Source: a virus
Direction: 5' to 3' (one strand)
IMG/VR virus record: IMGVR_UViG_3300047388_000113
Coordinates: 1 to 28,953 of that record
DNA: 28,953 nt
The notes under the pieces were generated by a model. It worked only from the letters and a program-made list of their open reading frames with translations, ran no database searches and had not been told where the DNA came from. The position numbers and the translations under genes were made by a program. Shown here piece after piece: positions 1,963-25,820 of the stretch; the first letter of the stretch is position 1; every line of letters begins with the position of its first letter.

Positions 1963-3651
1963 CTACGGTTTAGGTGGTGTGGACGGTGCTGGTGCTGGCT
2001 TCGGAGGAGTAGGACCTCCTCCGGCTGCTGGCTGTGTAGCGCCAGCCTTCATCAACGCGGTTGCCTCTGCGAGACTGGCAGCCTTCTCATCCGCGATGTT
2101 CTGCTTGATCTTCTCAAAGTCCAGGTCCTCTGGAAGCGCGCCGCGATTCTGGAGGATTGTGTAGAGCGTGTCAAGGTCGAGCTGGTTCGCCGCGACCATG
2201 TCACTGTAGACCTTGATCGTGTTGGCGTCGAGAGTGATGTCCTCGTAGTCGTCATCAATGAAGATGGACCCGCCAGTCGGCTCCTTGTAGTAGTTGGCGT
2301 GGAACTGGAGCGCCATCTCCATGGAGTCCTGCCAGCTGCGCGCGGGAGACTTTACAATTGCATCTTTCTCCGTCTTATCAATGCGCTTCGCTTCCGCGCT
2401 CTCGGCTGGCCGAACCATCTGCTGTAGAAGCGAGAGCCCCAACGCTGACATTCTCCGCTCTAGGTCCTGTAGCTCCTCGCGTGTAGCTCCGAGCGCGTGG
2501 CCTTGGTGCTCGACATACTTAACGTCGCCACCAATAGGTACGTCGAGCCCGATACTGGATCCAACCTCTTGCGTCTTTGGGTTACCATCCTCATCCTGCT
2601 GAGCGGAGATTGGCCTGCCGATAAATACCAGGATCGGCACACTGCCGATGTGAAGGCTGTGGCGTCGGTCACTGAGGACCTGAACGTGCGCAATGTTGCT
2701 GTATGCAAGGTCGAGCAGCGGTGGCTCGGTGTGAAGAGGACCGATGCGGTGGCCAGCGTAGAAGGCTGTGAAGGGAATGCGAATCTGATTTGTGACTACT
2801 CCGCTCGCAATCTTTATTGGCGGCTCCGCGAGCGACGCGCCAACTGCGTCTTCCCATAGCTCCCACGTCACGCTGTCCGTCTCCGTATCACAACGAAAAA
2901 CTCTGTAGCGGCTGATCGTGTAGGTAAGGAACTCGCCAGCGCTCTCCTCGGTTGCCTCATGGAACACGATCTGCGTCAGCGTCACCACGCCACCAATCGT
3001 CTTAAACCGCGCGCTGTAGATATTCTCCGCATGGATCAGCATCCAATACGCTCTCAGCCCGAGGTCGTTCTCATCCTTGAGCGAGAGCTTACCAGCTTCG
3101 AGCGTCTTCGCGCCAATGGACTCCTTCGGTGCCGGAGGCACATCGATGAGGATGCCAGCGTGGCCAACTGTCAGTCCGTCTGTAAAATAGTTCTTGGCGA
3201 ATACGGCGAAGTGCGAGCCTTGCCCGTCTACGTCTTCGAGGTCTGCCGCTATGCGAGGTGGAACGTCATCCTGCAGGACAGGGTCCTTACGTGTTACAAT
3301 TCCAGTCAGCCCCTTGACGCTGTGCTGGAAGCCAGGAAAGCACTCCGTCCGCTGGATGCGGTTGACATACTCTTGTGCGGTCTCGCTGCCATTCTGCGGG
3401 ATGTACTCCTCGGCATAGGCGCGGATGGCTTTGGTGCCGCTGAATAGATCGCGGCATATCTTCCAGAACGGCGCCATGTCGAAGTAAAGCGACGACCGAA
3501 AGCGTGGTGTGTCCGCGAGGAGCGCGGTTGGCGAGCTGACACGGTCGTCGGGATTGGTACTGCCCATCTGGATCTGGCTCGCGGCGATAGCAGCTGCGGT
3601 TGCGGCACGCGCTGCGTCGGCATTGCTGTCTGGGGTTATGGGACCGCTCAT
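1963..3651 (-). CDS. Portal protein, DUF4055 family
   Basis: About 562 residues from the ATG at 3651, whose ATGA overlaps the terminase stop and which has GAGGATT upstream. An in-frame start 24 bp earlier has a poorer ribosome site. Features that recall DUF4055 portals include the N-terminal region RSSLYFDMAPFWKICRDLFSG, the FPGFQHSVKGLTGIVTRKDP segment, a central beta domain around HAGILIDVPPAPKES and a helical segment ending LSLLQQMVRPAESAEAKR. The Ala/Pro-rich tail (TQPAAGGGPTPPKPAPAP) is typical of a disordered C-terminus. As portal it would form the dodecameric vertex through which the terminase drives DNA. Its place directly after the large terminase supports this. No protease, scaffold or major capsid gene follows it here. 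Confidence 0.88.
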   Translation of the reverse strand: MSGPITPDSNADAARAATAAAIAASQIQMGSTNPDDRVSSPTALLADTPRFRSSLYFDMAPFWKICRDLFSGTKAIRAYAEEYIPQNGSETAQEYVNRIQRTECFPGFQHSVKGLTGIVTRKDPVLQDDVPPRIAADLEDVDGQGSHFAVFAKNYFTDGLTVGHAGILIDVPPAPKESIGAKTLEAGKLSLKDENDLGLRAYWMLIHAENIYSARFKTIGGVVTLTQIVFHEATEESAGEFLTYTISRYRVFRCDTETDSVTWELWEDAVGASLAEPPIKIASGVVTNQIRIPFTAFYAGHRIGPLHTEPPLLDLAYSNIAHVQVLSDRRHSLHIGSVPILVFIGRPISAQQDEDGNPKTQEVGSSIGLDVPIGGDVKYVEHQGHALGATREELQDLERRMSALGLSLLQQMVRPAESAEAKRIDKTEKDAIVKSPARSWQDSMEMALQFHANYYKEPTGGSIFIDDDYEDITLDANTIKVYSDMVAANQLDLDTLYTILQNRGALPEDLDFEKIKQNIADEKAASLAEATALMKAGATQPAAGGGPTPPKPAPAPSTPPKP

Positions 3652-5021
3652 TGAGCAATCCTCGTGACTCCCCATCTTCCAACAGCCTTATCGCTCGGCA
3701 CAATCTCAATTGCCATCATACTCCCAGTGTCCACAATGTCATCGTGATCTTCCGGATAGCGGCTGTCCTTCTTCCCGTTAGGGAACTTCAAGTGCTGCTT
3801 CACCGCAACGTCCAACCATCCCGATTGACGTGGCCACCAAACATCCGAGCGACTCATCGCAGTTGCCCAAGGCACTGCGCGACTCCGTTTGTCCTTGTCA
3901 GGGTATACAGCTTCAATAGTAGTCTGAGGACACTCGCGACGTAAGGTCTGGACTGCTGTCAGTTGGTATTGGACTGCTTCGAGCCGGACGCGGTTTGGCC
4001 GCAGACGCTTGATCATCTCCTTGAGCTTGATGATTTGGTCTGGTCCCTCCATACGCTCATTCACTAGTTCGAGGATGCCAGCCTTCCGATAGCCATGCGC
4101 ATTGGCAACGGTGAGCCCTGCGGCCATGAATGCGGTATAGTCCGCCTTCTCCTTCAGAGAGGATGCGAGGTCGCCTGTGATTACTATCTCGGTGAACGGA
4201 TAACGAACGTGGCCAACCTGCATACTGTACTGGTCGGCGCTGTCGTAGTAATGGAAGAACTCGCTCTTGAATAGCTCGCCATGAGCCTCTAGGCGCTTCG
4301 CTTCGAGTTCTTGGAGCGCGTCCGTCGAGCCAGGCGGATACTCCGCGTATAAATCGGCAACCTCGGAAGGCGAGAGGAGCGGATTGTCGCCGCTCTTACC
4401 CTCATACATTCCCCACGTTGGCGCGGTCCGCTCGCCAGTCTCAATATCTGTGCACAGGCGATTGAAGAAGGATCCAATTTCAGTCGTGCTAATGAAGATG
4501 GCCCAGCCGATGTTGTCGGTGAGCGCTGGACGGACGACGCGCCGCCACGCATACTCTAGGTCGTAGTGTGCGCACTCGTCCAGTATGATCCCGTTTGGCT
4601 TCTTGCCTCGGATAACGTCAATGTTGTTGGAACTTATGATCTGGAGCCGACCATTGCCGATGTACAGCGTGCGGTGCTTCTCGGAGATTGTGCATCCGAG
4701 CTTGTTGAGGAAGCGCGGCTTGATCTCCTCCTCCCAAATCTCCTGCGCTTGGCCATAGTCCAAGGCAACCCAAATGATGTATATCTTCCGGTCCGGAGTC
4801 GCGTCAATAATGCCAGGCCACTTGTAGTGCCAGACTCCGTTCTCGTCATAGACCTTTGGCCCATGCCCGAGGATGGCGCAGCGTAAGCCATGGCGCGTCT
4901 TCCCCCACCTGCGTCCGCATGGCTCAACTTTGAAGCGCTCCTCTCCGAAGGTGGCTGGGACTTGATTGGAGAGAGGTGTTGGTATCTCTACAACTGCCTC
5001 ATCCTCAACAATCAGCGCCAC
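3648..5021 (-). CDS. terL: Terminase large subunit (packaging ATPase and nuclease)
   Basis: A 457-residue packaging motor. The N-terminal ATPase has a Walker A-like P-loop GRRWGKT (residues 36-42) and a Walker B IILDECAHYD (about 145-154), with the coupling-type motif FISTTE after it. The C-terminal RNase H-like nuclease has the first acidic motif VITGDLASSLKEKADYTAF and the late DHDDIVDTGS. The length is normal. Translation starts at GTG 5021, one base after the TAG of the upstream gene. It would cut concatemeric DNA and pump it through the portal encoded immediately downstream. It is separated from the small terminase by seven tiny genes, an unusual gap. Confidence 0.97.
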   Translation of the reverse strand: MALIVEDEAVVEIPTPLSNQVPATFGEERFKVEPCGRRWGKTRHGLRCAILGHGPKVYDENGVWHYKWPGIIDATPDRKIYIIWVALDYGQAQEIWEEEIKPRFLNKLGCTISEKHRTLYIGNGRLQIISSNNIDVIRGKKPNGIILDECAHYDLEYAWRRVVRPALTDNIGWAIFISTTEIGSFFNRLCTDIETGERTAPTWGMYEGKSGDNPLLSPSEVADLYAEYPPGSTDALQELEAKRLEAHGELFKSEFFHYYDSADQYSMQVGHVRYPFTEIVITGDLASSLKEKADYTAFMAAGLTVANAHGYRKAGILELVNERMEGPDQIIKLKEMIKRLRPNRVRLEAVQYQLTAVQTLRRECPQTTIEAVYPDKDKRSRAVPWATAMSRSDVWWPRQSGWLDVAVKQHLKFPNGKKDSRYPEDHDDIVDTGSMMAIEIVPSDKAVGRWGVTRIAQ

Positions 5022-5894: not shown

Positions 5895-6115
5895 AGGCCA
5901 GTCGAGTGACGGAAGTTGCAGTTGGGGCAGCGCGCGTATTTGTCCGGATCGGAGCCTTGCTTGACGGTTGGTGACCAAGCGTATCCGCACAATGCACATG
6001 TCAGTGCGAGCGGCTTGTTGACATTTGTGATTGTGGGTGAGAGGAACTGCTTTGGTGGTACACCTCCGTCGTTCCGGAAGTCGTCAATGTAGTCGCGCTT
6101 CGCTCCTGTTGGCAC
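5891..6115 (-). CDS. Zinc-ribbon protein of 74 residues (paralogue of 6236-6445)
   Basis: Starts at GTG 6115 behind a near-perfect AGGAGGACAAA ribosome site. Cysteines C40, C43, C63 and C66 form a zinc ribbon (CALCGYAWSP, CPNCNF). The N-terminal DYIDDFRNDGGVPPK and the pattern CxxCxYxWxP...CPxCxF closely match the 69-residue protein encoded at 6236-6445, so the two are duplicated copies separated by a membrane peptide. The role is unknown. Lying between the terminase genes they may act in packaging or late transcription, but nothing here shows it. Confidence 0.8.
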   Translation of the reverse strand: MPTGAKRDYIDDFRNDGGVPPKQFLSPTITNVNKPLALTCALCGYAWSPTVKQGSDPDKYARCPNCNFRHSTGL

Positions 6116-6125
6116 TTTGTCCTCC

Positions 6126-6230
6126 TTAGTGCAAGTGGGTAGCTATGAATGTGTCGCCGGAAATTGCGAGGAGCGCGAGGACCACCAGCACGGTCACCGC
6201 TACGATTGTCCACTCTCTGCGTGTGAGCAT
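6126..6230 (-). CDS. Single-span membrane peptide, 34 residues
   Basis: Reads MLTRREWTIVAVTVLVVLAL and then LAISGDTFIATHLH. A basic N-terminus is followed by an unbroken hydrophobic stretch of about 20 residues, giving an N-in, C-out single membrane span. It lies 5 bp after the stop of one zinc-ribbon gene and 10 bp before the start of its paralogue; its stop codon region supplies the AGGAGG of the next gene. The small size and the charge layout recall holin- or pinholin-like peptides, but no lysis enzyme is adjacent, so the function stays open. Confidence 0.6.
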   Translation of the reverse strand: MLTRREWTIVAVTVLVVLALLAISGDTFIATHLH

Positions 6231-6235
6231 GGTTC

Positions 6236-6445
6236 TTAGTTTCCGGTTGGGGTTTCAAAGTCGCACTGTGGACAGTGGATGTTGTGATCGTTGGTGGCGA
6301 CAACCGGAGTCCAGTTGTATGCACAAACGATGCACGTGATGTTGCAAGGAACGTACACAGCAGTGTCAGTTGGGTTGGCGTTCATCTTTGGGTAGACTCC
6401 TCCGGCCATCATGAAGTCGTCCACCGAGTCTCTACAATTGGCCAT
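6236..6445 (-). CDS. Zinc-ribbon protein of 69 residues (paralogue of 5891-6115)
   Basis: MANCRDSVDDFMMAGGVYPK start, then C38, C41, C58 and C61 as CIVCAYNWTP and CPQCDFETPTG. Comparison with the 74-residue neighbour shows the same order: a DDF..GGV.PK segment, an Asn-rich linker, the first knuckle with Y-x-W-x-P and a closing CPxCxF. The ribosome site GGAGAGAAGCG lies within the last codons of the small terminase gene, whose TAG is two bases upstream of this start. Metal binding is inferred from the cysteines; the target is unknown. Confidence 0.8.
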   Translation of the reverse strand: MANCRDSVDDFMMAGGVYPKMNANPTDTAVYVPCNITCIVCAYNWTPVVATNDHNIHCPQCDFETPTGN

Positions 6446-6447
6446 GG

Positions 6448-7134
6448 CTATCGCTTCTCTCCACCAGTGGTTTCGTCAACCTCTCGCACGATCAGCACAG
6501 CTGCTGTCGGGATCGGGTTGCCGTTCGGATCACCTATGCGAATGTGCTCGGGGAGCGCGCCGAGGTGCTGGAGCAGCGTGCGCGCGCTCGTGTTCTTGTC
6601 GTGTATCTCGTAGTCCACCGTATGCTCAACAGTCGTCTCGTCTCCGATGGTGGTCGAGGAGACCTTGTGTTTGATCTTCCGGATCGCACGCGTGGCGAGA
6701 GGATTACGACCCTCGACGGACTTGATCTTGCCACGGTCGGTGACCTCGAAGTCCTTGGTGATGTCGGTGTGAACTAGGTTGCCGAGTTCGAGGATGATAT
6801 TTTCCTGCTGCTGCTTGAGGCGCTTGATGCGCTCGACGCGAAGCTCCTCAATCGCTGCGGCCACCTTCGGAACTCTCATCACATCCGCTGCGCGTTGCGA
6901 AGCATTCTTGCCACGACCTCCAGCACGGATGTATGCATGCGTAGCTACAAAGTCAATTTGATACTCGTTGACAAACGTCTCTTGGAAAGCAGTCAACTGC
7001 TCGCGCGGAGGTTTGCCAGCACGCATGTAGCGGCAACGCTCGTATGCGTCGCCCCAGTTGCGGAGCTTCGCGACGCGGATGTCTTCCTGATCTGGTGATA
7101 ATGCCGGAGGAGTCGGCAGATCGTTGTCAGCCAT
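6448..7134 (-). CDS. terS: Terminase small subunit (Terminase_2-like)
   Basis: A 228-residue protein. Residues about 45-100 (LTAFQETFVNEYQIDFVATH, AYIRAG, KNASQRAADVMRVPKVAAAI) carry the DNA-binding helix-turn-helix signature of the Terminase_2 small-subunit family. A helical region (ERIKRLKQQQENIILELGN) for oligomerisation follows, then a beta-rich C-terminal part that would contact the large subunit. It would recognise the packaging site and load TerL. The ATG has no visible Shine-Dalgarno (CTATTCTTTCAGC precedes it), unlike nearly every other gene here. The 407-bp non-coding region directly upstream is the likeliest place for its recognition site and promoter. Confidence 0.93.
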   Translation of the reverse strand: MADNDLPTPPALSPDQEDIRVAKLRNWGDAYERCRYMRAGKPPREQLTAFQETFVNEYQIDFVATHAYIRAGGRGKNASQRAADVMRVPKVAAAIEELRVERIKRLKQQQENIILELGNLVHTDITKDFEVTDRGKIKSVEGRNPLATRAIRKIKHKVSSTTIGDETTVEHTVDYEIHDKNTSARTLLQHLGALPEHIRIGDPNGNPIPTAAVLIVREVDETTGGEKR

Positions 7135-7299
7135 GCTGAAAGAATAGTCTGGCGGATGTACTTGGCGCTACGGCGGGATGCGTGCCAAATTACGCCAGCA
7201 GTGTCCTATTAGCTCCACCGCTATATAGGGACACTTTTCACTACATACAGCTCAACAGTACAAGGGTCGCGCGCGGTTGGAGAGAGTAAACACTAATTC

Positions 7300-7336
7300 T
7301 ATTAGATCGTATTAGCTACTATTACTCTGATATTAG
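7300..7336. repeat. Helically phased TATTA(G/C) iteron array
   Basis: Four hexamers TATTAG, TATTAG, TATTAC and TATTAG start at 7300, 7310, 7320 and 7331, that is at 10, 10 and 11 bp spacing, so they face the same side of the helix. This is the arrangement expected for cooperative binding of a multimeric protein such as a small terminase ring, an initiator or a repressor. Further copies at 7207-7212, 7375-7380 and inverted at 7449-7454 lie in the same region. Confidence 0.7.
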
Positions 7337-7413
7337 ATAGCTAAGTATCTCTAGTTACATTGCTTAGTAGTTGTTATTAGTAGTTTCTATTATCTGAGGT
7401 CTGTACATTTCAT

Positions 7414-7426
7414 TTCATGTCATGAA
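7414..7426. promoter_or_regulatory. Palindrome TTCATGTCATGAA
   Basis: A 13-bp dyad with six-base half sites around a central T, between the iterons and the right outer repeat. It is a possible operator for a dimeric regulator such as the helix-turn-helix protein at 11056-11427. No experimental or comparative support is available here. Confidence 0.35.
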
Positions 7427-7480
7427 TAGTAACCCTATATAGGAATAGCTAATAGGACCGCTCCGGAGCCAATATGTGAG

Positions 7481-7522
7481 TCGGGCTCGGACCTCGCAAG
7501 AATCGCGGAGCCCCGAGCCCGA
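7481..7522 (-). terminator. GC-rich hairpin after the lipoprotein gene
   Basis: Perfect 10-bp arms TCGGGCTCGG (7481-7490) and CCGAGCCCGA (7513-7522) with a 22-base loop, 20 bp beyond the stop of the lipoprotein gene on the transcribed strand. No U-run follows, so it would be a poor intrinsic terminator. It may act as an mRNA 3'-end stabiliser or a protein site. Confidence 0.35.
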
Positions 7523-7541: not shown

Positions 7542-7886
7542 CTATTTTATCTGGACATCAACAAACGCGCTGTCGAGATAAGCATCAATTCCGTTCAGCG
7601 GCACGAGCTTTACGCGCGCCTGATCACCGACCGCGTACACGCATCCGGAGCTTTTCGTCCGCGTCGAGTCCGTCACCACGCTCACCTGTTGCGCTCCTTT
7701 CAGGAAGATGGCACTCCACTGCCAACTCACCCAGCTCACCTGAAGATTGCGTTGCGTCGGATTGGCGCACGTTACCACATTCGTTACTATGGCGTGCTTG
7801 CGGGCATACGGATCGGGTCCAATCGCGTTTTGCGAGCAAGCCACTACGAGCGCCACGAGCGCCACCAGCATGATCATCCTTCTCAT
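7542..7886 (-). CDS. Lipoprotein, function unknown
   Basis: 114 residues. The N-terminus MRRMIMLVALVALVVACSQN has a basic start, a hydrophobic core and a lipobox (VVAC), so the mature protein would be lipidated at Cys17 and anchored in the envelope. The mature part has two more cysteines (VVTCANP, SSGCVYAVGD) that could form a disulfide, and beta-type strands (LQVSWVSWQW, ARVKLVPLNG). The AAGGAGAGTAAG ribosome site fixes the start. Phage lipoproteins often block superinfection or alter the host surface; that is family-level speculation. The CSQNAIGPDP start resembles Gemmatimonadota lipoproteins and may hint at the host. Confidence 0.82.
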   Translation of the reverse strand: MRRMIMLVALVALVVACSQNAIGPDPYARKHAIVTNVVTCANPTQRNLQVSWVSWQWSAIFLKGAQQVSVVTDSTRTKSSGCVYAVGDQARVKLVPLNGIDAYLDSAFVDVQIK

Positions 7887-8139: not shown

Positions 8140-8365
8140 GGTGTTTCACCTCCGTCCTTTTGACATATTGTACTCTCCCAAACCGATCAAACACAAACAC
8201 ATACAGCGCGGTCCGGACCTTCATCGCTCTCTCCACCGCGTCCCGTCTCAGCCGGAACTTCTTCAGCACTCGCGTCGTCCGGCCAGCCCTACGCACAGCC
8301 CATCCCTTTCCACCGTAGTCCGGCACCACATCCATGCTCCATATCCTATCCGGAGGATTGTACAT
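8132..8365 (-). CDS. Small basic protein, DUF2188-like
   Basis: 77 residues. The layout DVVPDYGGKGWAVRRAGRTT, a helix (RRDAVERAMKV) and a final strand with a DRFGRVQYVKR turn matches the DUF2188 pattern of 'W.V...g.....f.tk.eAi..a......v.v...dGri'. DUF2188 proteins are small, often stress- or phage-associated, and of unknown function. The start ATG overlaps the AAA+ ATPase stop as TAATG, with GGAGGGAAGAAGT as the ribosome site, so it is translationally coupled to that gene. Confidence 0.65.
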   Translation of the reverse strand: MYNPPDRIWSMDVVPDYGGKGWAVRRAGRTTRVLKKFRLRRDAVERAMKVRTALYVFVFDRFGRVQYVKRTEVKHHG

Positions 8366-10137
8366 TACTTCTTCCCTCCGTCAAAGTCCGTTGTGGGTTT
8401 GAACACCTTCACTTCCTTGATCAATTTCGCGGTGATCGGCTCGTCACGCGCTACGGACATCAGCATCGCGAGCTTGAGGAGGTTCTTGACGTCGCGCCCC
8501 GATAGCTCGGGATGTTCCGTAGCGAATACTCCAATGTCCTTGTCCGACAGCTTCGCTCCCGCGTTATCTGCGAGGATACGCCATATGCGCTTCTGATCCG
8601 GCACGGTTGGGATCGCATAGCTGATTCGAGCGATACAGCGCGAGGCTATTGCGTCGTCCACCAGGTCCGCACGATTGGTCGTCATGAACATGACTCCCTT
8701 GTAGTATTCGAGCGTGCGGAGGAAGACACCCACAATTGCGTTCTGCTGGAGGTTATCGCCGCGCGTATGGACGTAGACATCCGCTTCGTCTAGGAGGAGG
8801 ATGCTGTCCCACCTTGCGGATCGGGCGAAGGTTTTGAGCAGGTTGTCTTCGAGGTCGTCCGGATCGGTGCCGAGCTGAGAACACTGGACCGTATAGAGTG
8901 GGCGCGAAGTGACCTCAGCATAGGCTTCGGCTGTAAGAGTCTTACCAGTTCCTGGTGGGCCTGCGGAGAGAATGATGCTGCCGGAGCCTTTGCCCTGAAT
9001 GATGTCTCTGAATCCTCCGTCCTTCTGTGCGAGGAGGATGTCGATGAGAACACGCTGCGCATCCGGCAGCACAAGCTTCTCGCCCAGTTTCGGATCATAT
9101 ACATACTCCGTCAATTGGTCAATATGGATCCTGAGCCGCATGTGGCGCTGGAGGTCGAAGCACGCGAGCGTCGGATGAACAGGGAGCACGAGCTGCGCAA
9201 CATCTGCCTCGTCAGCAGCGGTAGCTTCCAGCTCCTCGTCATCATCGTTATAGTCCCCATCATCATCCGCACTCGTAGTCTTCACCTTCAGGCGCTTCCA
9301 GAACAGCGCGTCAACTGTATCCTCTCGGCTCCGGCTATTGCGGCTGTCGTCATCCTCAGTGTCATCTTCCTTGAATACATCAATCACCACCCGCGTCGGT
9401 ACATCCTCGCGGTCGAGCGCGATAGTGTTGGTGCGACGATACCACCAGCTGTCGCTCTGCTTCTTGTTCCCGTCAAGATCGTCGGTGGCTTCGCCGCGCG
9501 CGAGGAACTGTTTGCCAATCTGGTCCACGTTCGCGATAAAGCGCTCGTGCGAGGCCATGTACATGGCGCGTAGCTCCTGAGTCTCGCCAATGTATCCCTT
9601 GTCGGTAAGGGATTGCGAGACTGGACGGTGGCAACAGTGCTCTGCGTGAAAGGAGACTGAATCTTTGTGGCGCTTGCCAAACTCCTCGTAGAATATGTCC
9701 ATGGAGCAGTAAGCCGGAGCGAAGCCTCCGCCACTGTAGTGCTGAGGACGATGATACCGGACATCCTCGACGTAGTAGGCCCACCAGCAGTTGCGCTTGT
9801 CGTCTTTGAAGTAGACGCGGTGACCAGGCACCTTGCTCAAGTAGCGCATCAGCATACTGCTGAAGGCTTCGACGGTCCGAGGCTTCGCACCCTCGGTGTT
9901 CTTAATAGCTGCGAGCCAGCTGTCAATGTCGCGGAGGAGTATTTTGGTGCCCTTGATCTCCGTATGATCAGTGATCAAAGACTTCAGCTCCATGATCTTC
10001 ATCGGTGTATAGCCAGCGAGGTCGATGCCCACCCCGCCATTGCCCATGTAGCGAAAGCGGTCGAAGTCCACCCCGAACGGCTTCAGCTCCTTCGCTCCGA
10101 TTACTTCCGCAAGCGCCTTATTGATTTTGATTTCCAC
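8365..10137 (-). CDS. AAA+ ATPase with large N-terminal domain
   Basis: 590 residues from GTG 10137 (GGAG nine bases upstream). The C-terminal third is a classical AAA+ module: Walker A GPPGTGKT (393-400), Walker B ILLLDEAD (about 446-453), sensor-1 FMTTNRAD (about 484-491), a likely arginine finger in ASRCIARISY, and a small helical lid with sensor-2-like SGRDVKNLLKLA. The first 280 residues form a separate domain rich in aromatic residues and cysteines (SFHAEHCCHRPV), followed by an acidic linker (DDDGDYNDDDEELEA). The AAA part resembles the BCS1/FtsH-like remodeller group more than clamp loaders or helicases. It probably remodels a protein or nucleoprotein target. The partner is unknown. 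Confidence 0.9.
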   Translation of the reverse strand: MEIKINKALAEVIGAKELKPFGVDFDRFRYMGNGGVGIDLAGYTPMKIMELKSLITDHTEIKGTKILLRDIDSWLAAIKNTEGAKPRTVEAFSSMLMRYLSKVPGHRVYFKDDKRNCWWAYYVEDVRYHRPQHYSGGGFAPAYCSMDIFYEEFGKRHKDSVSFHAEHCCHRPVSQSLTDKGYIGETQELRAMYMASHERFIANVDQIGKQFLARGEATDDLDGNKKQSDSWWYRRTNTIALDREDVPTRVVIDVFKEDDTEDDDSRNSRSREDTVDALFWKRLKVKTTSADDDGDYNDDDEELEATAADEADVAQLVLPVHPTLACFDLQRHMRLRIHIDQLTEYVYDPKLGEKLVLPDAQRVLIDILLAQKDGGFRDIIQGKGSGSIILSAGPPGTGKTLTAEAYAEVTSRPLYTVQCSQLGTDPDDLEDNLLKTFARSARWDSILLLDEADVYVHTRGDNLQQNAIVGVFLRTLEYYKGVMFMTTNRADLVDDAIASRCIARISYAIPTVPDQKRIWRILADNAGAKLSDKDIGVFATEHPELSGRDVKNLLKLAMLMSVARDEPITAKLIKEVKVFKPTTDFDGGKK

Positions 10138-10869: not shown

Positions 10870-11059
10870 TTCCCACCTCCTTCAAAGCAATCTTGATTAC
10901 TTCCTGAAGCACCTTGGCCTGAGCGACGGTAACCAGATGGTCAATGGACTTGTTGTTCTCGGAGCAAGCGGTACAGTTCTCCTGATTACATCCACTCATC
11001 CGCTCCAGCACGTCATTCTTCGCGCGCGTCAGCGCGTCCTCTCCCTCGAATCGCTTCAT
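10853..11059 (-). CDS. Hypothetical helical protein with cysteine cluster, 68 residues
   Basis: Begins MKRFEGEDALTRAKNDVLER, then CNQENCTAC (C24, C29, C32) and a helical second half (SIDHLVTVAQAKVLQEVIKI). The cysteine cluster may bind a metal. ATGA overlap joins it to the helix-turn-helix gene upstream, and GGAGGAAGGTAGC gives a good ribosome site. It overlaps the next gene by 17 bp. Function unknown; a partner or modulator of the regulator is possible. Confidence 0.7.
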   Translation of the reverse strand: MKRFEGEDALTRAKNDVLERMSGCNQENCTACSENNKSIDHLVTVAQAKVLQEVIKIALKEVGNDLIP

Positions 11060-11427
11060 GCTACCTTCCTCCGTTTTGCCCAGCTGTTAAGATACTCTAG
11101 CATTAGGTCCTGCGGCATCTTTGCTCCATCGATGTCGTGTTCACGATTGAAGATTGTAACGCGCGACACGTTCAGCCTGTCTGCTAGTCCGTCGAGCGTA
11201 ATGCCAAGCCGTTTGCGGAGGATCGTTATCATCTCCCCCTTAGTGGGACGGAGCCCACGCGCCACAAACGACAGTGGCGAGGTCCCGTAGCCATCTGCTA
11301 CAGGCTTTCCCTTCTCAATCTTACTCAGCGTATCATGCGACATACTCATTCGCCGCGCGGCATGCTCCTGCGTCAGCCTGTACCTGCGCCGCTGCAAGAA
11401 CACTCGCTCACCCTTGGTCAGTTTCAC
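11056..11427 (-). CDS. Tandem helix-turn-helix (XRE-like) regulator
   Basis: 123 residues from GTG 11427, chosen because AAGGAGGAACGC sits just before it; a longer frame to 11526 exists but overlaps the upstream gene. Two Cro/CI-type domains are seen: residues about 4-40 (GERVFLQRRRYRLTQEHAAR, MSMSHDTLSKIEKGKP) and about 62-100 (TKGEMITILRKRLGITLDGL, NVSRVTIFNREHD). Two such units in one chain would allow monomeric recognition of a direct repeat or an asymmetric site. It probably regulates phage promoters, for example the repeated promoter cassettes in this window; that link is inference. Confidence 0.85.
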   Translation of the reverse strand: MKLTKGERVFLQRRRYRLTQEHAARRMSMSHDTLSKIEKGKPVADGYGTSPLSFVARGLRPTKGEMITILRKRLGITLDGLADRLNVSRVTIFNREHDIDGAKMPQDLMLEYLNSWAKRRKVA

Positions 11428-11641
11428 GCGTTCCTCCTTCAATTCTCTTATCCTCTGGTAGAAGTAAGTCAACGAGCGGCTGGCCACACTCCTCCGGAAC
11501 TGATAGAACTCCGGCGCAGCTGTCACCGCAGAATACTACGATGTGCCACTCCTTATGCTTCGCTCCCTTCTCCACATGGAGCCGCGTGATACACGGAGGA
11601 GTTAGGGACTCCGTCAGCGCGTGGAAGAAGGTCCGCTCCAT
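11408..11641 (-). CDS. Hypothetical protein, 77 residues
   Basis: MERTFFHALTESLTPPCITR start, then HKEWHIVVFCGDSCAGVLSV and a charged tail. Three cysteines could bind metal. It follows the membrane gene upstream by a TGATATG junction and runs 20 bp into the regulator gene. There is no strong ribosome site, so it is probably coupled. No family is recognised. Confidence 0.62.
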   Translation of the reverse strand: MERTFFHALTESLTPPCITRLHVEKGAKHKEWHIVVFCGDSCAGVLSVPEECGQPLVDLLLPEDKRIEGGTRETDQG

Positions 11642-13803: not shown

Positions 13804-13910
13804 CGGTCAGTTCTCCATTTCTAGGGTTTTCGCTACTGGTGGCGTCCGCCACTCCGATAACAATACGCGTCACAGCGTTAAAAGTAAAGGGTTTCCGGAA
13901 AGATTTTTCA
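13804..13910 (-). promoter_or_regulatory. Promoter-leader cassette P1
   Basis: Minus-strand promoter with -35-like TTTACT (13883-13888), 17-bp spacer and -10-like TATTGT (13860-13865). The expected start of transcription falls right at the 5' arm of a hairpin GTGGC-GGAC-GCCAC (13839-13852), followed by GTAGCGAAAACCCTAGAAATGGAG and the ATG. The block CCCTTTACTTTTnACGC is shared by four such units in the window. The bases upstream (AAATCTTTCCGG) also resemble the other copies. Confidence 0.75.
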
Positions 13911-16007: not shown

Positions 16008-16115
16008 CTTAGTGCTCCAGTTCTGAGGTTTTCGCTACCTGCGCCGTTCGGCGCTTCTAGGATATTACGAGCCAGAGCGTGAAAAGTAAAGGGTAGGAAG
16101 CAAAGATTTTCAACA
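16008..16115 (-). promoter_or_regulatory. Promoter-leader cassette P2
   Basis: TTTACT (16085-16090), 17-bp spacer, TAATAT (16062-16067), hairpin GCGCC-GAAC-GGCGC (16041-16054) at the expected 5' end of the transcript, then GTAGCGAAAACCTCAGAACTGGAG and the ATG of the 252-residue protein. Upstream TTGAAAATCTTTGCTTCC matches the other copies. It has the best -10 of the four. Confidence 0.8.
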
Positions 16116-16853: not shown

Positions 16854-16960
16854 TTGCGGCTCCAGTTCTAAGGTTTTTCGCTACATGCGCCGTTCGGCGC
16901 TTCTAGTACATTACGACCGAGAGCGTGAAAAGTAAAGGGGTTTATACCAATTATTTCTCA
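16854..16960 (-). promoter_or_regulatory. Promoter-leader cassette P3
   Basis: TTTACT (16931-16936), 17-bp spacer, TAATGT (16908-16913), hairpin GCGCC-GAAC-GGCGC (16887-16900), then TGTAGCGAAAAACCTTAGAAC and TGGAG before the ATG at 16853. Its upstream part reaches the stop of the nuclease gene at 16958, so no terminator separates them and read-through from the replication operon is possible. Confidence 0.78.
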
Positions 16961-17608: not shown

Positions 17609-18343
17609 TCAGAGCGTGACACCGGAGTCCGTGATTGGAGTTCGAGACTGAGCAGCGGTCCACGTATCGTCCGAGCCATCACGGTGTTGCTGTACCCAGT
17701 CGTTCATATACTTCTTCAGATCGGTGAACCAAAGCTCCTCGCGCTGGCGCCACCGAGCCTCGTGCTCATAGCTAATCTCGCGCCGATTCTCGCCAGCTTG
17801 GCGTCGCGTCAGATCCATTATCATGTACTCTCGAATCTCGCCAGTGGCTCGAACAAAGGGCAAGTAGAGAATGCGAGGTGTGAGCACAAAGCTGTATTTG
17901 TCCGCGAGGCAGAGGAGCGAAGGCTGAGCACCGCTAGCTTTTGCGAGGTAGCGCGAGTGATACAGAACGAAGTAATACCAGCCAGGTCCAAACACGCTCC
18001 GGAGGATCGCGGCGCCAGTGTAGGGATGGCGCTCTCCGCTCGGGTCATCCATCTTCTCCTTGCCGATGTAGCCAATGTCGTGGAGGAAGAACGCGAGCCA
18101 CAGCCTCGGGTCCTTCAGCGAGACATAACCAACATAGCGGTCGATGACTGGCTTCCAGCCGTACAGCGCGTGCCAAGCCTTCGCAACAAAGAACCAATGC
18201 CAAAGGAAACAGTGCGCTCCATATAGAACCGAGCGCGTGCCCATGCTCGCGTTACGGACTCTCCGCAGCAGCAGCCCCAACGGTATCCCTATCATCAGCC
18301 CCAGTGTTATCAGATAGCCCATCGATGCCCATTTGCTTGTCAT
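17609..18343 (-). CDS. Membrane-anchored HD-domain hydrolase
   Basis: 244 residues from ATG 18343. The N-terminal YLITLGLMIGIPLGLLL is a membrane span followed by RRVR. The rest is an HD phosphohydrolase: a first His-rich helix (YGAHCFLWHWFFVAKAWH), the HD pair in WLAFFLHDIGYIG (H88, D89), GERHPYTGAAIL (H106), FVLYHSRYLA (H129) and SLLCLADKYSF (D148). HD proteins remove phosphates from nucleotides or cyclic dinucleotides; the substrate here is unknown. This start lies 92 bp inside the polymerase gene; a start at 18244, 7 bp after the polymerase stop, would omit the anchor. Each has only a modest ribosome site, so the membrane anchor is not certain. Confidence 0.82.
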   Translation of the reverse strand: MTSKWASMGYLITLGLMIGIPLGLLLRRVRNASMGTRSVLYGAHCFLWHWFFVAKAWHALYGWKPVIDRYVGYVSLKDPRLWLAFFLHDIGYIGKEKMDDPSGERHPYTGAAILRSVFGPGWYYFVLYHSRYLAKASGAQPSLLCLADKYSFVLTPRILYLPFVRATGEIREYMIMDLTRRQAGENRREISYEHEARWRQREELWFTDLKKYMNDWVQQHRDGSDDTWTAAQSRTPITDSGVTL

Positions 18344-21239
18344 CTTTCACCTTCCGCTTACGCGGTGTCTTAGGTTTGTACTTCTCCTCTAACGCATTGA
18401 ACAGCTCGGGATGATCCTGCGTGGAGGGAGCCGCGTCCTCCATAGGGAGCTTGAGCCAGCGCCGCACAAGGACCACCCTCCATCCGTCGCTCTTGATAAT
18501 CCCTTTCCACAGGTACCACTCTCCAATCCTACCTTCCTCCACGAGCGGTTTACCGAGCGTCGCGTATAGTTCGCGCTGAATCTTTACGATGATTGATCCT
18601 GTGTCATCCTCCACAATCATGTTCAGGAACTGCGAATTGCCCTTGATCATCCGACCTCCGCGCTTCACTACGCTCTGATACTCGTTCAGATCGCGGAGAT
18701 TCTTTTCCATCAACCTACCAATGAAGATGTATTCGCCAGGCTCACTCGTAATGTCGGAGATATAGGTGAGGTTGCCGGAGAGGATGTTGTGATCCTTTGG
18801 ATTCTTGTACCAGTCACCATAGCGACGCTCTGCCTCGAAGATGTCGTCAAAGGGTGTGCGAGGCTGGGCTAGGAGCTTTGCTTGGCCAGGTTGGTAACCA
18901 ATATTGGCTCGGCGTCTCCGGATAACGTCCTCCGCTTTGCTCTTGCCCATGCCCTTGATATTGGTGAGACCTCCGAGGAGCTTCCCATCTACCACGCTCC
19001 AATTTACATCGCTTCGGAGCGGGTCAACAGGTACAAACTCGAAACCTTCCTTCACTAACTCGCGGAGGAGCTTGACAGGCTGGTCGTCATCCTTCGGGTT
19101 ACGCAAACACGCTGCCGCGAACTCTAGCGGATAGTGAGCCTTGAGCACGGCGCACCAGTAGCTGATAAGTCCGTAGGATACAGCGTGGCTCTTATTAAAC
19201 GCCCACGATCCAAATGTGCACAGCTTCTCCCAAATGCGCCGCGAGTCCAGCGGCTCAATCCCGTTCTCCTTCGCGCCGACCTTGAAGCGCTCCCAGTACT
19301 GATTGAAGAACTCCTCACCGAGAGACTTACTCATGGCGCGGCGAAGCTGGTTGACATCCTCCCAGTTTAGTTTGCCGAGCACACGACACATGGACATCAC
19401 CTGCTCTTGGTAGATGACGGTGCCGAACGTCTCGTCAGTCAGTGGCTCCGCGAGCTTGTGGATGTAGGTGACGGGCACCTTCCCCGTCCGACGCTCAATG
19501 AACTCGCTTGCGGCTCCGCAGTGAAGCGGACCAGGCCGAGCGAGAGAGGTAATGGCAACAATGTCATTGAACTCGTGCACCTTCATCTGGCGCGTTAGAA
19601 TCTGGAGCGCGTAACCCTCGAACTGGAAAATGCCGCTGTACTTCTCGTCATTGAAGATTTCAAATGCCTTCTGGTCGTCCAGCGGATACTCCACCAGCCA
19701 CTCACGATCCTTTCCAATTTGGTCGAGAGCGTCTTGCAAGACACTCAAAGTCCGGAGTCCCAGTGCGTCAATCTTGAGGAGGTTTAGGACCTCGGCATCC
19801 TTCTTGTCTATGCAAGAGACACCGTGCTCAGACACACTGCAATAATTGCGGATCGGTTCATTAGATAGAACCACTCCTGCGGCATGCTTTCCGGTGTTAG
19901 TGGCGTGGCCTTCAAGCTCGCCTGCGAGAGCGATACCTGGATACTTAGCAAGGAGAGCTTTGCCGATGTCCAAACCCTCAAGGGTGTCTTTAATACAGAA
20001 GGTGGCTCTAGCGTCGCCACCACTTCTCTCAACAATAGCGCCTTTGACATCTTTGATCTCCCATTCGGGGATGCTCAATTCCTTCGCGACATCACCCAGT
20101 GCTGATTTGGCTTTGTACCGACTGACCGTGCCAAGTCTTCCAACTCTATCGGCTCCGTACCTCTGTTCAAGATACGGAAACAGGAGGTCACGCTTAGTGT
20201 CTTGGAAGTCAATGTCGATGTCAGGTAGATCAGCCCGAGTAACATCAATGAAACGCTCGAACATAAGATCATGACGTATGGGATCCACATCCACAATGCC
20301 AAGTAGATAGCACACGAGACTACCAGCACTGCTTCCCCGAGCAGGGCCCACGAGCATTTGCGTCTTTGCCCAAGTGACGAGGTCCGCGATAACATAGAAG
20401 TAGTCCTCAAAGTTTTTGGAGGTGATCATCTCTAGCTCACGATCTAAACGAGCTTGATATTCGTCATTCCATTCGAGCTTGCGTGCTGAAATGCCCTCGA
20501 CACACATCTGCCGCAAACTCTTCAACTTCTCCGGTGCCACAATCTCCGCGCGTGGTAGCTTCGCGTTGCAGTCGTCCGCAATCGTATGCGTCAACCGAAA
20601 GTGCTCGTCCTTGGCCTCTGGGATTGCGCTCCGCAGTTCCCACTCGCTCGCTATATGGGTGATGGTCGTCCTGCTATCCCGATTCTGCCATGCGAGGACC
20701 TCATATGCTGCGGAGTCCTCGGGACGCGGATGTGTGTTGTCGCAGCAGACCACCTTCGGATAGGGAAGGTCTACGGCGCGCTTATTCCATGGCGAGCTTC
20801 GAGGGGAGAGGATGAGTGCTAGTCGGGTCCGTCCGTTCGGCAAGAGGTCCATCCTTGCATTTTCCCCGACTAGCACCCACAAGTTCTCCGAGACCTCGCA
20901 CATCTGCTTGTAGGAGATACGCGGCACGTAGTAGAATTGATCATTGGCCTGCGACACCAGCTGGTACATCTCCCTTAGCCCGTCATTGTTACGCGCGAGG
21001 AAGATGAACGGAGTTCCTACAGGCTTGCTTCCCTTGTCGAGCGTGAGGCACACTAGTAGCTCCGCGCCGAAGATTGGCTTGATGCCGAGCTTCTTAGCCT
21101 CCTTTGCGAATGGCGCATGACCCCAAGTTCCGAGGTCGGTGATGGCCATAGCTCCTCCGGTAGCGAGCGCCAACACCTGCTCCATTCGCCCGTAGGCTTT
21201 CCGGAAACTGTACTCAGTTCTAATGCGAAGGTGAATCAA
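18252..21239 (-). CDS. dnaE: DNA polymerase III alpha subunit (family C replicase)
   Basis: 995 residues, starting at TTG 21239 (GGAG seven bases upstream; TTGA overlap). Domains: a PHP domain at 1-200 whose ligand positions are degenerate (HLRIRTEYS, ITDLGTWG); palm with GPARGSSAGS (298-307) and PDIDIDFQ (D342, D344), and the third catalytic Asp in KIDALGLRTL (D491); fingers including FGSWAFNKSHAVSYGLISYW (676-695); a helix-hairpin-helix (GGLTNIKGMGKSKAEDVI, about 756-773); an OB fold (about 835-930) and a Lys-rich, low-complexity tail. It is shorter than E. coli alpha (1160) and lacks a clear tau-binding domain. With the exonuclease at 21897-22430 it would form a phage replicase core. Confidence 0.96.
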   Translation of the reverse strand: MIHLRIRTEYSFRKAYGRMEQVLALATGGAMAITDLGTWGHAPFAKEAKKLGIKPIFGAELLVCLTLDKGSKPVGTPFIFLARNNDGLREMYQLVSQANDQFYYVPRISYKQMCEVSENLWVLVGENARMDLLPNGRTRLALILSPRSSPWNKRAVDLPYPKVVCCDNTHPRPEDSAAYEVLAWQNRDSRTTITHIASEWELRSAIPEAKDEHFRLTHTIADDCNAKLPRAEIVAPEKLKSLRQMCVEGISARKLEWNDEYQARLDRELEMITSKNFEDYFYVIADLVTWAKTQMLVGPARGSSAGSLVCYLLGIVDVDPIRHDLMFERFIDVTRADLPDIDIDFQDTKRDLLFPYLEQRYGADRVGRLGTVSRYKAKSALGDVAKELSIPEWEIKDVKGAIVERSGGDARATFCIKDTLEGLDIGKALLAKYPGIALAGELEGHATNTGKHAAGVVLSNEPIRNYCSVSEHGVSCIDKKDAEVLNLLKIDALGLRTLSVLQDALDQIGKDREWLVEYPLDDQKAFEIFNDEKYSGIFQFEGYALQILTRQMKVHEFNDIVAITSLARPGPLHCGAASEFIERRTGKVPVTYIHKLAEPLTDETFGTVIYQEQVMSMCRVLGKLNWEDVNQLRRAMSKSLGEEFFNQYWERFKVGAKENGIEPLDSRRIWEKLCTFGSWAFNKSHAVSYGLISYWCAVLKAHYPLEFAAACLRNPKDDDQPVKLLRELVKEGFEFVPVDPLRSDVNWSVVDGKLLGGLTNIKGMGKSKAEDVIRRRRANIGYQPGQAKLLAQPRTPFDDIFEAERRYGDWYKNPKDHNILSGNLTYISDITSEPGEYIFIGRLMEKNLRDLNEYQSVVKRGGRMIKGNSQFLNMIVEDDTGSIIVKIQRELYATLGKPLVEEGRIGEWYLWKGIIKSDGWRVVLVRRWLKLPMEDAAPSTQDHPELFNALEEKYKPKTPRKRKVKDDKQMGIDGLSDNTGADDRDTVGAAAAESP

Positions 21240-21421
21240 GTGGTGTCTCCGTTCTGTAGTCTTCTGGTGAGCGTGAACTCAATCTCTCGAATCTGCTTTA
21301 GTATGGACCTCTCGCCTGCGCGAGGAGTCGTGAAAATCTTTTGCTTGAGGATGGCCAGTTCTGCTCGAAGCTCGGCGCTCGTCCGCTCGTCATCAGCGCT
21401 CGAATACTGGCCACCCTTCAT
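21236..21421 (-). CDS. Coiled-coil protein, 61 residues
   Basis: From ATG 21421 (ATGA overlap, AAGGAG upstream). After MKGGQYSSADDERTSAELRA the protein is one long helix (ELAILKQKIFTTPRAGERSI, LKQIREIEFTLTRRLQ). It sits immediately before the polymerase, and its stop overlaps the polymerase TTG start, so the two are made together. It may be a small polymerase accessory, but nothing in it shows that. Confidence 0.72.
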   Translation of the reverse strand: MKGGQYSSADDERTSAELRAELAILKQKIFTTPRAGERSILKQIREIEFTLTRRLQNGDTT

Positions 21422-21561
21422 TTCCACTCCTTACGCTCAGCATCTTCCTCACGAGCTTCCTTACATGGGCATGGATAAAAACCAACATATGTCGGTTCAC
21501 CATCCCACCTAGCAGGACAAGGTGTCAGCTTCCTTCCGCAATCAGGGCAGCGCTTTGTCAT
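21418..21561 (-). CDS. Zinc-ribbon protein, 47 residues
   Basis: Reads MTKRCPDCGRKLTPCPARWD, then FYPCPCKEARE and a charged tail (EEDAERKEWK). C5, C8, C15, C31 and C33 can form a zinc ribbon. ATGA overlaps at both ends and AGGAGGAGGAAAA upstream show that it is a real gene although very short. It is the third of three tiny cysteine-pair genes in a row before the polymerase. Confidence 0.72.
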   Translation of the reverse strand: MTKRCPDCGRKLTPCPARWDGEPTYVGFYPCPCKEAREEDAERKEWK

Positions 21562-21704
21562 TTTTCCTCCTCCTCGGTCCCACACGGCTTACAGAGCAAC
21601 TGGCCAGGCTCCACCTTTGAGTAAGCTGCCCAGTCACCTTCTTCGATTGGATCCAAACAATTTGCACAGCGCGAACGGAACTTGCACCGGAACCAATTAA
21701 GCAT
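21558..21704 (-). CDS. Zinc-ribbon protein, 48 residues
   Basis: MLNWFRCKFRSRCANCLDPI, then WAAYSKVEPGQLLCKPCGTE: C13, C16, C38 and C41 (with C7) in zinc-ribbon order. It starts within the last codons of the preceding gene (8-bp overlap) and ends in ATGA with the next. Overlapping longer frames in this region are rejected because three consecutive small frames share start/stop overlaps and cysteine pairs. Confidence 0.7.
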   Translation of the reverse strand: MLNWFRCKFRSRCANCLDPIEEGDWAAYSKVEPGQLLCKPCGTEEEEK

Positions 21705-21900
21705 TGATCAATCCCGTCCGGAGGATTGTGAAGCGCTTCCACTTCTTCATCCGCGTCGGCGCTGCGCTCTTTGGCTTCTGGCGGTGCGACTGATACCAGC
21801 GGTGGCCACAGGAGCAGCGGCAGCGGCGATTGCTCCGCTTGTGATCCTCGGCGCTGAACTGGCATTGGTGGAGGTGGAGCGGGTTGTGGGAATGTTTCAT
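21697..21900 (-). CDS. Cys/His-rich basic protein, 67 residues
   Basis: From ATG 21900 (ATGA overlap with the exonuclease stop; AAGGAGAACCTCAT upstream). Reads MKHSHNPLHLHQCQFSAEDH then RRCRCSCGHRWYQSH, with C13, C27, C29, C31 and many His residues, followed by a strongly basic tail (RQKPKSAAPTRMKKWKRF). It may bind zinc and nucleic acid. No family is recognised. Confidence 0.7.
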   Translation of the reverse strand: MKHSHNPLHLHQCQFSAEDHKRSNRRCRCSCGHRWYQSHRQKPKSAAPTRMKKWKRFTILRTGLINA

Positions 21901-22430
21901 ATGAGGTTCTCCTTGCGGCACCACTTGACAATGTCCACGAGCGCGAACACATCATCCATCGCGCGGTGCTTCTGAGCGAGAGGCTTGCCCATTGCCTTCG
22001 CGTAAAGCTCTGTCATATGGAGTCGGTGGCCTTCGAGATGGGCTGTGGCCTCGACCGTGCAAATTTGCACCGGAGGCCAAGGGAACTTTGTGGTGCGAGC
22101 TAGGCGAGCTAGCTCCAACTGGAGCATGTCATGATCAAAGGAGCAATTGTGCGCCACCATCGTCCGCTCTCCGAGGAAGAACTCCACGAGGTCATTCAGA
22201 TAGGCGCTGAACGGTTTGGCATCCTTGAGATCATCATCCGTCAGTCCAGTGATGTCGGTGATGATCTTGTCGAGCGGGATGCCAGGGTTGCACTTGAAGT
22301 TGATCTCCTTGTAAGGCTCGAAGCTCGGGTCAAGTTTAACGGCAGCAAACTCGATGATGTGCGGCTGCTGGGGGAGAGGAAGGGACTTGCTCTTGATCAG
22401 TCCGGTAGTCTCTGTGTCGAATACTATCAC
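21897..22430 (-). CDS. DnaQ-like 3'-5' exonuclease (proofreading subunit)
   Basis: 177 residues from GTG 22430 (GGAGGAGTTGAC; GTGA overlap). All DEDDh motifs are present: ExoI FDTETTG (D5, E7), ExoII HNCSFDHDML (D99), ExoIII KHRAMDDVFAL (H155, D160). The segment DITGLTDDDLKDAKPF is also typical of epsilon/DnaQ proteins. Since the polymerase at 18252-21239 has a degenerate PHP domain and cannot be expected to proofread itself, this enzyme is the natural candidate. The two genes are separated only by four tiny ORFs. A DNA-repair or RNase T-like role is the alternative. Confidence 0.93.
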   Translation of the reverse strand: MIVFDTETTGLIKSKSLPLPQQPHIIEFAAVKLDPSFEPYKEINFKCNPGIPLDKIITDITGLTDDDLKDAKPFSAYLNDLVEFFLGERTMVAHNCSFDHDMLQLELARLARTTKFPWPPVQICTVEATAHLEGHRLHMTELYAKAMGKPLAQKHRAMDDVFALVDIVKWCRKENLI

Positions 22431-22720
22431 GTCAACTCCTCCAGCATCGCGCCATACACGATCAAGTCGTGTGCCGAGTCCGCGTGCCCAGTGTTACCGC
22501 GCGCGGTGTAGCGGCAAATCTTCGAGACGATCATATTCACTACCCCAAATTTAGCGAAGTCCTCGGGAGAGAGAAGGGTGAGCCCATGTGGATAGATTGC
22601 CGCCATAACTGGTCCATGACGAACATATGTGTCGCCATAAACCTTACCACGTTTACGGAAGGTCACCGAGGCCCAAGCAAGATTGTCGAGCGCTCTGTTG
22701 ATTCTTTTCTTCTTCTTCAT
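22427..22720 (-). CDS. All-alpha NTP-pyrophosphatase-like protein (DUF6378/MazG-like)
   Basis: 97 residues from ATG 22720 (TGATG junction). After a basic start (MKKKKRINRALDNLAWAS), the order KVYGDTYVRHG, VNMIVSKICRYTARG, DSAHDLIVYGAMLEEL follows that of DUF6378 proteins ('r...YG......m...Ki.R........Ds..D...Y..l'), related to the MazG/dUTPase all-alpha group that hydrolyses nucleotide triphosphates. This would fit its place among ThyX, HAD phosphatase and replicase genes. The usual EExxD metal motif is not evident, so enzymatic activity is unproven. Confidence 0.7.
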   Translation of the reverse strand: MKKKKRINRALDNLAWASVTFRKRGKVYGDTYVRHGPVMAAIYPHGLTLLSPEDFAKFGVVNMIVSKICRYTARGNTGHADSAHDLIVYGAMLEELT

Positions 22721-23217
22721 CAGTAAGCCCCAGGTTGATTTTGGAAACACGTCAATCCGCCTTTGCGCCAGAAGGCCACCATTTTGTCGCGGTCCTCTAG
22801 TACAAAGCTGATATTCCTGAACGGGAGCCCAGCATCCGTCGCTAGCTCTCCCTTTACGATTGTGTCCGGTCGGTGATCACCTACGGCGCGCATGTGAAGC
22901 TCGTCATAGGGGATGCCATGCTTTACTAGCCACTCCTCTGTCTGCGGTCGGTAGTCATCAGAGCGTCCGGTGATGATCATGATGCGATGGTGCGGCATGT
23001 GCGAGTGGACCATCCGTGCCAGATAGCACTCCGCTTCCTTCGGCGTGTCGTGGATACAGTACATATTGAATGACACCCAGTCCTTCTCCTCTGCGTAACG
23101 GAGCCGATGCGTTACGTCCGCGAGCGTGCCGTCAAGATCGAAGACAAACCATAACTGTTCGTCCATGGGTGTGGCCTCGCGGACTGCCTCCCATTGCTCT
23201 GCGGTCAGGTTCATCAT
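22720..23217 (-). CDS. HAD-family phosphatase (polynucleotide-kinase 3'-phosphatase-like)
   Basis: 165 residues. HAD motif I FVFDLDGTLADVTHR (D27, D29), motif II IMIITGRSDD, a motif III lysine in TIVKGELATDAG, and motif IV FVLEDRDKMV are in order; the cap is small. The form resembles the phosphatase half of T4 polynucleotide kinase and phage nucleotidases, here without a kinase domain. It would remove 3' phosphates from DNA or RNA, or phosphate from nucleotides. ATGA overlap with ThyX, in the nucleotide-metabolism operon. Confidence 0.88.
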   Translation of the reverse strand: MMNLTAEQWEAVREATPMDEQLWFVFDLDGTLADVTHRLRYAEEKDWVSFNMYCIHDTPKEAECYLARMVHSHMPHHRIMIITGRSDDYRPQTEEWLVKHGIPYDELHMRAVGDHRPDTIVKGELATDAGLPFRNISFVLEDRDKMVAFWRKGGLTCFQNQPGAY

Positions 23218-24008
23218 TTGGTTGGCGCTCCTTGTGCTGGTCTCGCCTCATAGCGCGTGATCTGCCACAGCTGCTGAATCTCCTCGCGAGTCCGCGCGTC
23301 GCCACCATCCCACGCGTCGCCAGTGTCCGCATTGAACACCGCTCCCTTAATCGGGCATTCCATGAAGTTCGGGAAGGCGCAGACTCCGAGCGCGGCGCAA
23401 TGGACACGGATGAATGGCTCCGCCCAAGGGTGGACCTCTATCACCCGCTCGCGCATCGCCCGAAACACATCCTGATACTCGCCCTGCGTCCTCGTGCACA
23501 AGCGCACCTTCGCCATCTCGGAGAGCGTCCGGAGCGAGAACTTGCCGACAATGTTGGTGGCAATGTTGGTGGGAAGAACTCCGCGCGCGTCTTGCGGAGG
23601 GACGCCATCTTCAATCATAAGCTGGTATCCGGATTGGATCAGCCTCATTGTCGTCCGATACTGTGACGCGGCGCTCGACTCTTCATCACTGAAGGACTCT
23701 GGTGTGATGTAATCAAACCCGCTCATGTCCACGGTCCGCTGCGACTGTTGAGCGTAGCTCCCTTGGCGAGTCCGAACGAATTGATGAGTGAAGGCGCGCG
23801 ACACCTCGTCAATTAGGAAGGTGTAGTCAACAAACTCCCAGCTGCTTTGGATCGTCCCACGCATGTAGTCCAGCTCTTTCTGCTTCCGTTCCGGAGGCCA
23901 AGCCTTTATCTCGTCCAGTAGGCCAGGCTCCATCGTCAGACGCGTCTGCTTAGTCATCAGCAGCAATTCCAGCGCGTCCGGAGTATAGCTAAGCAAAGTT
24001 ACTTTCAC
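23214..24008 (-). CDS. thyX: Flavin-dependent thymidylate synthase (divergent)
   Basis: 264 residues from GTG 24008 (GTGA overlap, GAGGAGG upstream). The ThyX motif is present as RTRQGSYAQQSQR (79-91), with S84, S89 and R91 conserved, as is ARGVLPTNIATNIV. The family motif RHRxxS usually has His at position 80, here Thr; the upstream 'EH' histidine (His53 in Thermotoga) is Phe in SSWEFVDYTF. The dUMP-contact arginine region (KVRLCTRTQGE, R169) is kept. ThyX makes dTMP from dUMP with methylenetetrahydrofolate, FAD and NADPH. The changes could mean an altered mechanism or another pyrimidine substrate, or may just mark a phage subfamily. Confidence 0.9.
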   Translation of the reverse strand: MKVTLLSYTPDALELLLMTKQTRLTMEPGLLDEIKAWPPERKQKELDYMRGTIQSSWEFVDYTFLIDEVSRAFTHQFVRTRQGSYAQQSQRTVDMSGFDYITPESFSDEESSAASQYRTTMRLIQSGYQLMIEDGVPPQDARGVLPTNIATNIVGKFSLRTLSEMAKVRLCTRTQGEYQDVFRAMRERVIEVHPWAEPFIRVHCAALGVCAFPNFMECPIKGAVFNADTGDAWDGGDARTREEIQQLWQITRYEARPAQGAPTK

Positions 24009-25241: not shown

Positions 25242-25242
25242 A

Positions 25243-25818: not shown

Positions 25819-25820
25819 AA

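Follow-up and report, generated by a model that had tools for sequence, protein, structure and literature searches.

The DNA analyzed here, referred to as the window, was the whole 28,953-nucleotide stretch of IMG/VR virus record IMGVR_UViG_3300047388_000113. Its main genes all lie on the minus strand and encode, in order, UvrD, ThyX, an exonuclease, DnaE, a two-HTH protein, an AAA protein, and a small protein of no known function, followed by an AT-rich intergenic island and then terS, terL, and the portal gene. The small gene beside the island (positions 7542 to 7886) belonged to no Pfam family and matched one phrog weakly, with no function assigned. The features considered below are as follows.

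1963 to 3675, minus strand: portal gene (DUF4055, phrog_145)
3648 to 5021, minus strand: terL (phrog_38, phrog_2)
6448 to 7134, minus strand: terS, the first gene of the late operon (PF03592, E value 1.8e-18; phrog_51)
7203 to 7246, plus strand: left module GTCCTATTAGCTCCACCGCTATATAGGGACACTTTTCACTACAT, from alignment
7283 to 7432, no strand: core of the AT-rich island, 28.7% G+C over 150 bp, from the composition profile
7300 to 7336, plus strand: phased array TATTAG-TATTAG-TATTAC-TATTAG, with starts at 7300, 7310, 7320, and 7331 (spacing of 10, 10, and 11 bp)
7375 to 7393, plus strand: two extra TATTA elements, TATTAG at 7375 and TATTAT at 7388
7417 to 7458, minus strand: right module, the inverted copy, read on the minus strand as GTCCTATTAGCTATTCCTATATAGGGTTACTATTCATGACAT, from alignment
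7434 to 7443, no strand: palindrome CCTATATAGG within the right module
7460 to 7469, no strand: palindrome GCTCCGGAGC abutting the right module
7481 to 7522, minus strand: G+C-rich hairpin located between the island and the gene upstream of it; it resembles a terminator but has no T run
11056 to 11526, minus strand: two-HTH XRE-like protein, the candidate binder (Pfam HTH_31 at 25 to 76, HTH_3 near 103 to 131)

Several other features of the window were recorded. A promoter-leader cassette, consisting of a TTTACT-N17-TAATAT-like sequence followed by a G+C hairpin, was repeated on the minus strand at 13809 to 13892, 16011 to 16094, 16857 to 16940, and 25933 to 25966, with the first three copies ending at start codons; it was absent from the island. 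The C-terminal part of the AAA ATPase (8365 to 10137) was 45% identical to a protein of Bacillus phages AR9 and PBS1 annotated as an ATP-dependent protease, and relatives of this ATPase occurred in nonsyntenic phages. The replication genes (18252 to 27447) matched those of Cronobacter phage Ss1, Vibrio phage VA-RY-3, and PB1-like phages; the portal and terminase genes were related to other groups, indicating a mosaic genome.

Composition and repeats of the island

The initial annotation had described the region upstream of terS as the sole strongly AT-rich stretch, at 29% G+C, and the composition profile bore this out. G+C content was 29.3% over 7291 to 7440, and the minimum for any 150 bp of the whole window was 28.7%, at 7283; the next lowest value elsewhere was 40.7%, and the window mean was 56.4% (standard deviation, 4.6%). 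The four TATTA(G/C) hexamers noted in that annotation were likewise recovered at the same spacing directly upstream of the small terminase gene, 166 bp from the start of the PF03592 terS. Four-copy chains of any 5-mer at 10- or 11-bp steps were found in none of 2,000 dinucleotide shuffles of the island, and four-copy 5-mer chains with any period were found in 0.25% of 400 island shuffles; the phased array is therefore beyond chance and is not a product of composition. TATTA[GC] was counted 5 times, against a shuffle mean of 0.76, and 0 of 2,000 shuffles reached 5. TATTAG or its complement CTAATA occurred six times in the 28,953 bases, every time inside 7207 to 7454. Beyond the four hexamers, additional copies were located at 7207, 7375, 7388, and, in reverse orientation, 7449, and the TATTAT at 7388 overlapped a weak sigma70-like −10 element, GATAAT, on the minus strand and directed at terS. 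No Rfam family or tRNA was detected in the island.

The island is bracketed by two face-to-face copies of a 42- to 44-bp module, which align as GTCCTATTAGCT--CTATATAGGG--ACTnTTCAnnACAT. Their local alignment score of 37 was reached by 0 of 2,000 shuffles (shuffle maximum, 33). The left module together with 7200 to 7202 was predicted to fold as a hairpin (z = −3.8). The hairpin at 7481 was considered as an intrinsic terminator, a role that was unsupported given the absent T run.

The motif in related phages

Syntenic relatives were reached via the replication module. These were IMG/VR 3300035698_019976 (G001; 51 kb), the nearest relative by replication genes, and IMG/VR 3300020016_000006 (G003; 67 kb). 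Single-protein scans with TerS, TerL, and AAA returned no close relatives, and none of the AAA relatives (L011 to L019) or portal relatives (L041 to L120) were syntenic. An exact-pattern search of viral contigs for the double motif found nothing, a blastn search of phage records with the cassette returned a single match at chance level, and no close relative was found on bacterial genome contigs.

The eight sites of the window were used to build a weight matrix, which was run against about 2.95 Mb of phage DNA, both related and unrelated, and scored relative to local composition. The island upstream of terS in G001 ranked 3rd among all 300-bp segments scanned. It had been chosen before the scan, as the low-GC region preceding the terminase genes, together with the corresponding regions of other relatives (seven fetched in all). 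The test is therefore nearly independent, with a factor of about 7 to be allowed for the relatives inspected. The core CCTATTAG clusters in this island, and the only three copies of CCTATTA in 51 kb of G001 are found upstream of terS, within 170 bp of the genome's lowest-GC stretch.

Two cassettes were identified in G003. The first, heading the late genes (9.5 to 9.8 kb), is the lowest-GC island of that genome and carries CCCTATTAGG. The second, at 40.3 to 40.6 kb, precedes an early helicase operon and contains a 15-bp perfect inverted repeat, AATATTCCCTATTAG, which is among the genome's two longest of that class. In these cassettes the palindrome CTCTCGCGAGAG adjoins CCCTATTAGG. A 31-kb fragment, G038, has the motif at this helicase operon as well. 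Both this site and the second G003 cassette were found via the motif, so that the evidence lies in their locations and their placement is not fully independent.

Across 1.72 Mb in 40 related records, seven occurrences of CCCTATTAG were counted, forming three close pairs plus a lone site and confined to three records; in 200,000 trials that placed seven sites at random, no more than one close pair ever arose. All of these sites fell in intergenic regions at operon heads, at the late operon in G001 and G003 and at the early helicase operon in G001, G003, and G038. The sole 8-mer common to all five cassettes was CCTATTAG, and sites with at most one mismatch from the motif exceeded composition shuffles in each of the five (P at most 0.002). 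The relatives thus share the motif and its AT-rich location at an operon head; the strict 10-10-11 phasing was found in the window only. The TerS proteins encoded behind the three late cassettes were assigned to PF03592/phrog_51 (window), phrog_309 (G001), and, by a weak match, phrog_9231 (G003), and no BLASTP similarity was detected between the window and G001 TerS proteins. As judged from these sequence comparisons, functional conservation of the island appears well supported.

Other records fetched in these searches had features of their own. The TerL reading frame at L097:4903-7569 encodes 889 amino acids, with an apparent intein insert mid-frame. In the relative L180/G021, inverted repeats of CCACTTTCCA occur in two cassettes that are homologous to each other (L180:15452-15657 and L180:2162-2274), one heading the terminase operon and the other preceding another gene block, and their motif is unrelated to CCTATTAG. 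At L223:4537-4659, a 19-bp perfect inverted repeat, TTTCCATTTTCCATTTTTG, lies upstream of the terminase genes.

Candidate roles of the island

The arrangement found here, with a short motif repeated in two opposed clusters in an intergenic region heading an operon, is that expected of an XRE-type multi-operator. We lean toward reading the island as a multi-copy operator that heads the late operon and is composed of CCTATTAG-type elements, through which a putative phage HTH regulator would control the late and early helicase operons. This reading is preferred because the position of the motif is tied to operon heads and not to TerS. The island would then be the control region heading the late (terminase and structural) operon, with two face-to-face modules 170 bp apart and, as spacer, AT-rich DNA in which half-matching sites form a phased row. 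Several copies would be bound cooperatively by a DNA-binding protein of the phage (most likely the two-HTH protein encoded at 11056 to 11526), which would either bridge both modules by looping or coat the phased array on one face of the DNA. Binding would time the transcription of the late operon and, behind the sister cassette, that of the early helicase operon, the direction of this regulation being conjectural. The proposal in the initial annotation that the array is a multimer-binding site is thus well supported as regards a candidate multi-copy protein-binding site, at which we infer that a protein binds. No strong sigma70-like promoter was detected in the island, where the best match ranked 16th on the coding strand; the matches were weak, which could reflect activator dependence or a host with another promoter consensus.

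Homologues of the two-HTH protein were detected in G001 and G003 and in none of 36 other records. The gene therefore co-occurs with the motif in the window, G001, and G003, a link that rests on three close relatives; the exception is G038, which has the motif and no HTH homologue in its 31-kb fragment. The protein was modeled as two three-helix units at low confidence (mean pLDDT of 65), and fold matches to the model were weak, with many XRE-type domains among the matches listed. No copies of CCTATTAG were found upstream of the HTH gene. The cassette is probably bound by a phage regulator, for which the two-HTH protein is the most likely candidate. A second, broken copy of the two-HTH gene, with one internal stop, was observed at G003:63018-63311; the intact copy is at 5911 to 6297.

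The main alternative to an operator is an origin of the SPP1 type, which we regard as unlikely; packaging and stacked promoters are less likely. An AT-rich unwinding region would be accompanied by iteron-like repeats bound by an initiator, possibly twice per genome like oriL and oriR of SPP1. Direct repeats and an AT-rich stretch do follow the SPP1 origin plan, of which SPP1 has two examples 13 kb apart (PMC6316719). G003 also has two cassettes, and the lowest-GC interval of each genome coincides with a cassette. However, the neighbors of the island are terS and the small gene, with no adjacent initiator or helicase loader, and the cassettes are placed at operon heads. The best skew changepoint in G003 (9,844) is beside its first cassette, but this shift also separates early from late genes and so does not discriminate; strand-skew analysis of the window gave a changepoint at 21,752, which is away from the island and not significant. 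Of the iteron idea in the initial annotation, the combination of direct repeats and AT-rich DNA stands and an adjacent initiator gene is absent, with the skew values pointing neither way.

That annotation had also expected a packaging site at this position, with the phased hexamers serving as TerS-binding sites for packaging initiation (pac or cosB). The array does lie directly upstream of a PF03592 TerS gene, and its phasing is specific to the window; packaging and promoter functions could moreover coexist, as in SPP1, whose pac site shares sequence with the late promoters and with the start of gene 1 (PMC6316719). The motif itself did not track a cognate TerS family. It has the same sequence and position in G001, whose TerS is unrelated (phrog_309), it accompanies the weak phrog_9231 match in G003, and it recurs at early-operon heads in G003 and G038, far from the terminase genes. 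Because the motif keeps to operon heads whichever TerS family is encoded, it is unlikely to be a TerS recognition element. A TerS packaging site is accordingly disfavored for the motif and distinctly improbable for the hexamers overall; TerS could still make use of the phased array, which is specific to the window.

A reading of the island as stacked weak terS promoters, in which the hexamers would be overlapping −10-like boxes (TAATAG, TAATAC, and TAATAT on the minus strand), is very improbable: the minus-strand reading resembles the TAATAT −10 element of the repeated early promoters at 13809, 16011, and 16857, and the −10-like GATAAT overlaps the site at 7388, but a good −35 element at proper spacing is missing (scores rank 16th, 33rd, and 58th), and the conserved CC before TATTAG and the inverted modules are left unexplained. 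A T7-type promoter, prompted by the resemblance of CTATATAGGGA to TATAGGGA, was dropped, as the two modules would converge and as no phage RNA polymerase was present among the genes examined in a nonexhaustive search.

Comparison with known control regions and wider pattern

The motif appears to be undescribed, and the kind of system is already known; the system is probably a phage control region of an ordinary type. The operators OI and OII of Rco on pLS20 are similar in that opposed clusters of an 8-bp motif flank an AT-rich spacer at an operon head and in that the element encodes its own XRE-type HTH regulator (PMC4207663). Intersite phasing matters in that system, and both phasing and looping are experimentally supported (PMC4207663). 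The motif and host context differ, and the pLS20 promoters are mapped and divergent, whereas the region described here is known from sequence alone. In SPP1, control sequences also lie immediately upstream of terS, where pac and the late promoters PL1 and PL2 overlap (PMC6316719); here, in contrast, the motif is common to phages with unrelated TerS proteins and recurs at early operons. The SPP1 oriL and oriR sequences likewise place direct repeats beside AT-rich DNA twice per genome (PMC6316719), as in G003, but the cassettes here have no adjacent initiator gene and are located at the heads of transcription units. JG024 and other PB1-like phages share DnaE-type replication genes and have conserved AT-rich intergenic motifs with no function assigned (PMC3008698); CCTATTAG is not among the motifs given in the available part of that report.

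By inspection, long TTTCCATTTTCC-type inverted repeats were seen at the head of the terminase operon in two relatives whose motif is a different one, L223/G027 and L222 or L180/G021. This suggests that the architecture may be kept while the motif sequence changes between lineages. More broadly, it is conceivable, if rather doubtful, that an uncultured phage lineage coordinates its early and late operons via sister cassettes with an AT-rich spacer and inverted modules. Module sequence would vary (CCTATTAG here, CACTTTCCA in G021), each phage would have a matched pair of regulator and site, and the phased array would be a face-specific platform for the tandem-HTH protein.

A repeat array beside terS need not mean a packaging signal, as the motif here goes with operon heads whatever the TerS family. 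In this group of phages, which carry DnaE-type replication genes and are known here from metagenomes only, the island offers a cis element that can be tested, and the two-HTH protein is a candidate regulator of the early/late switch.
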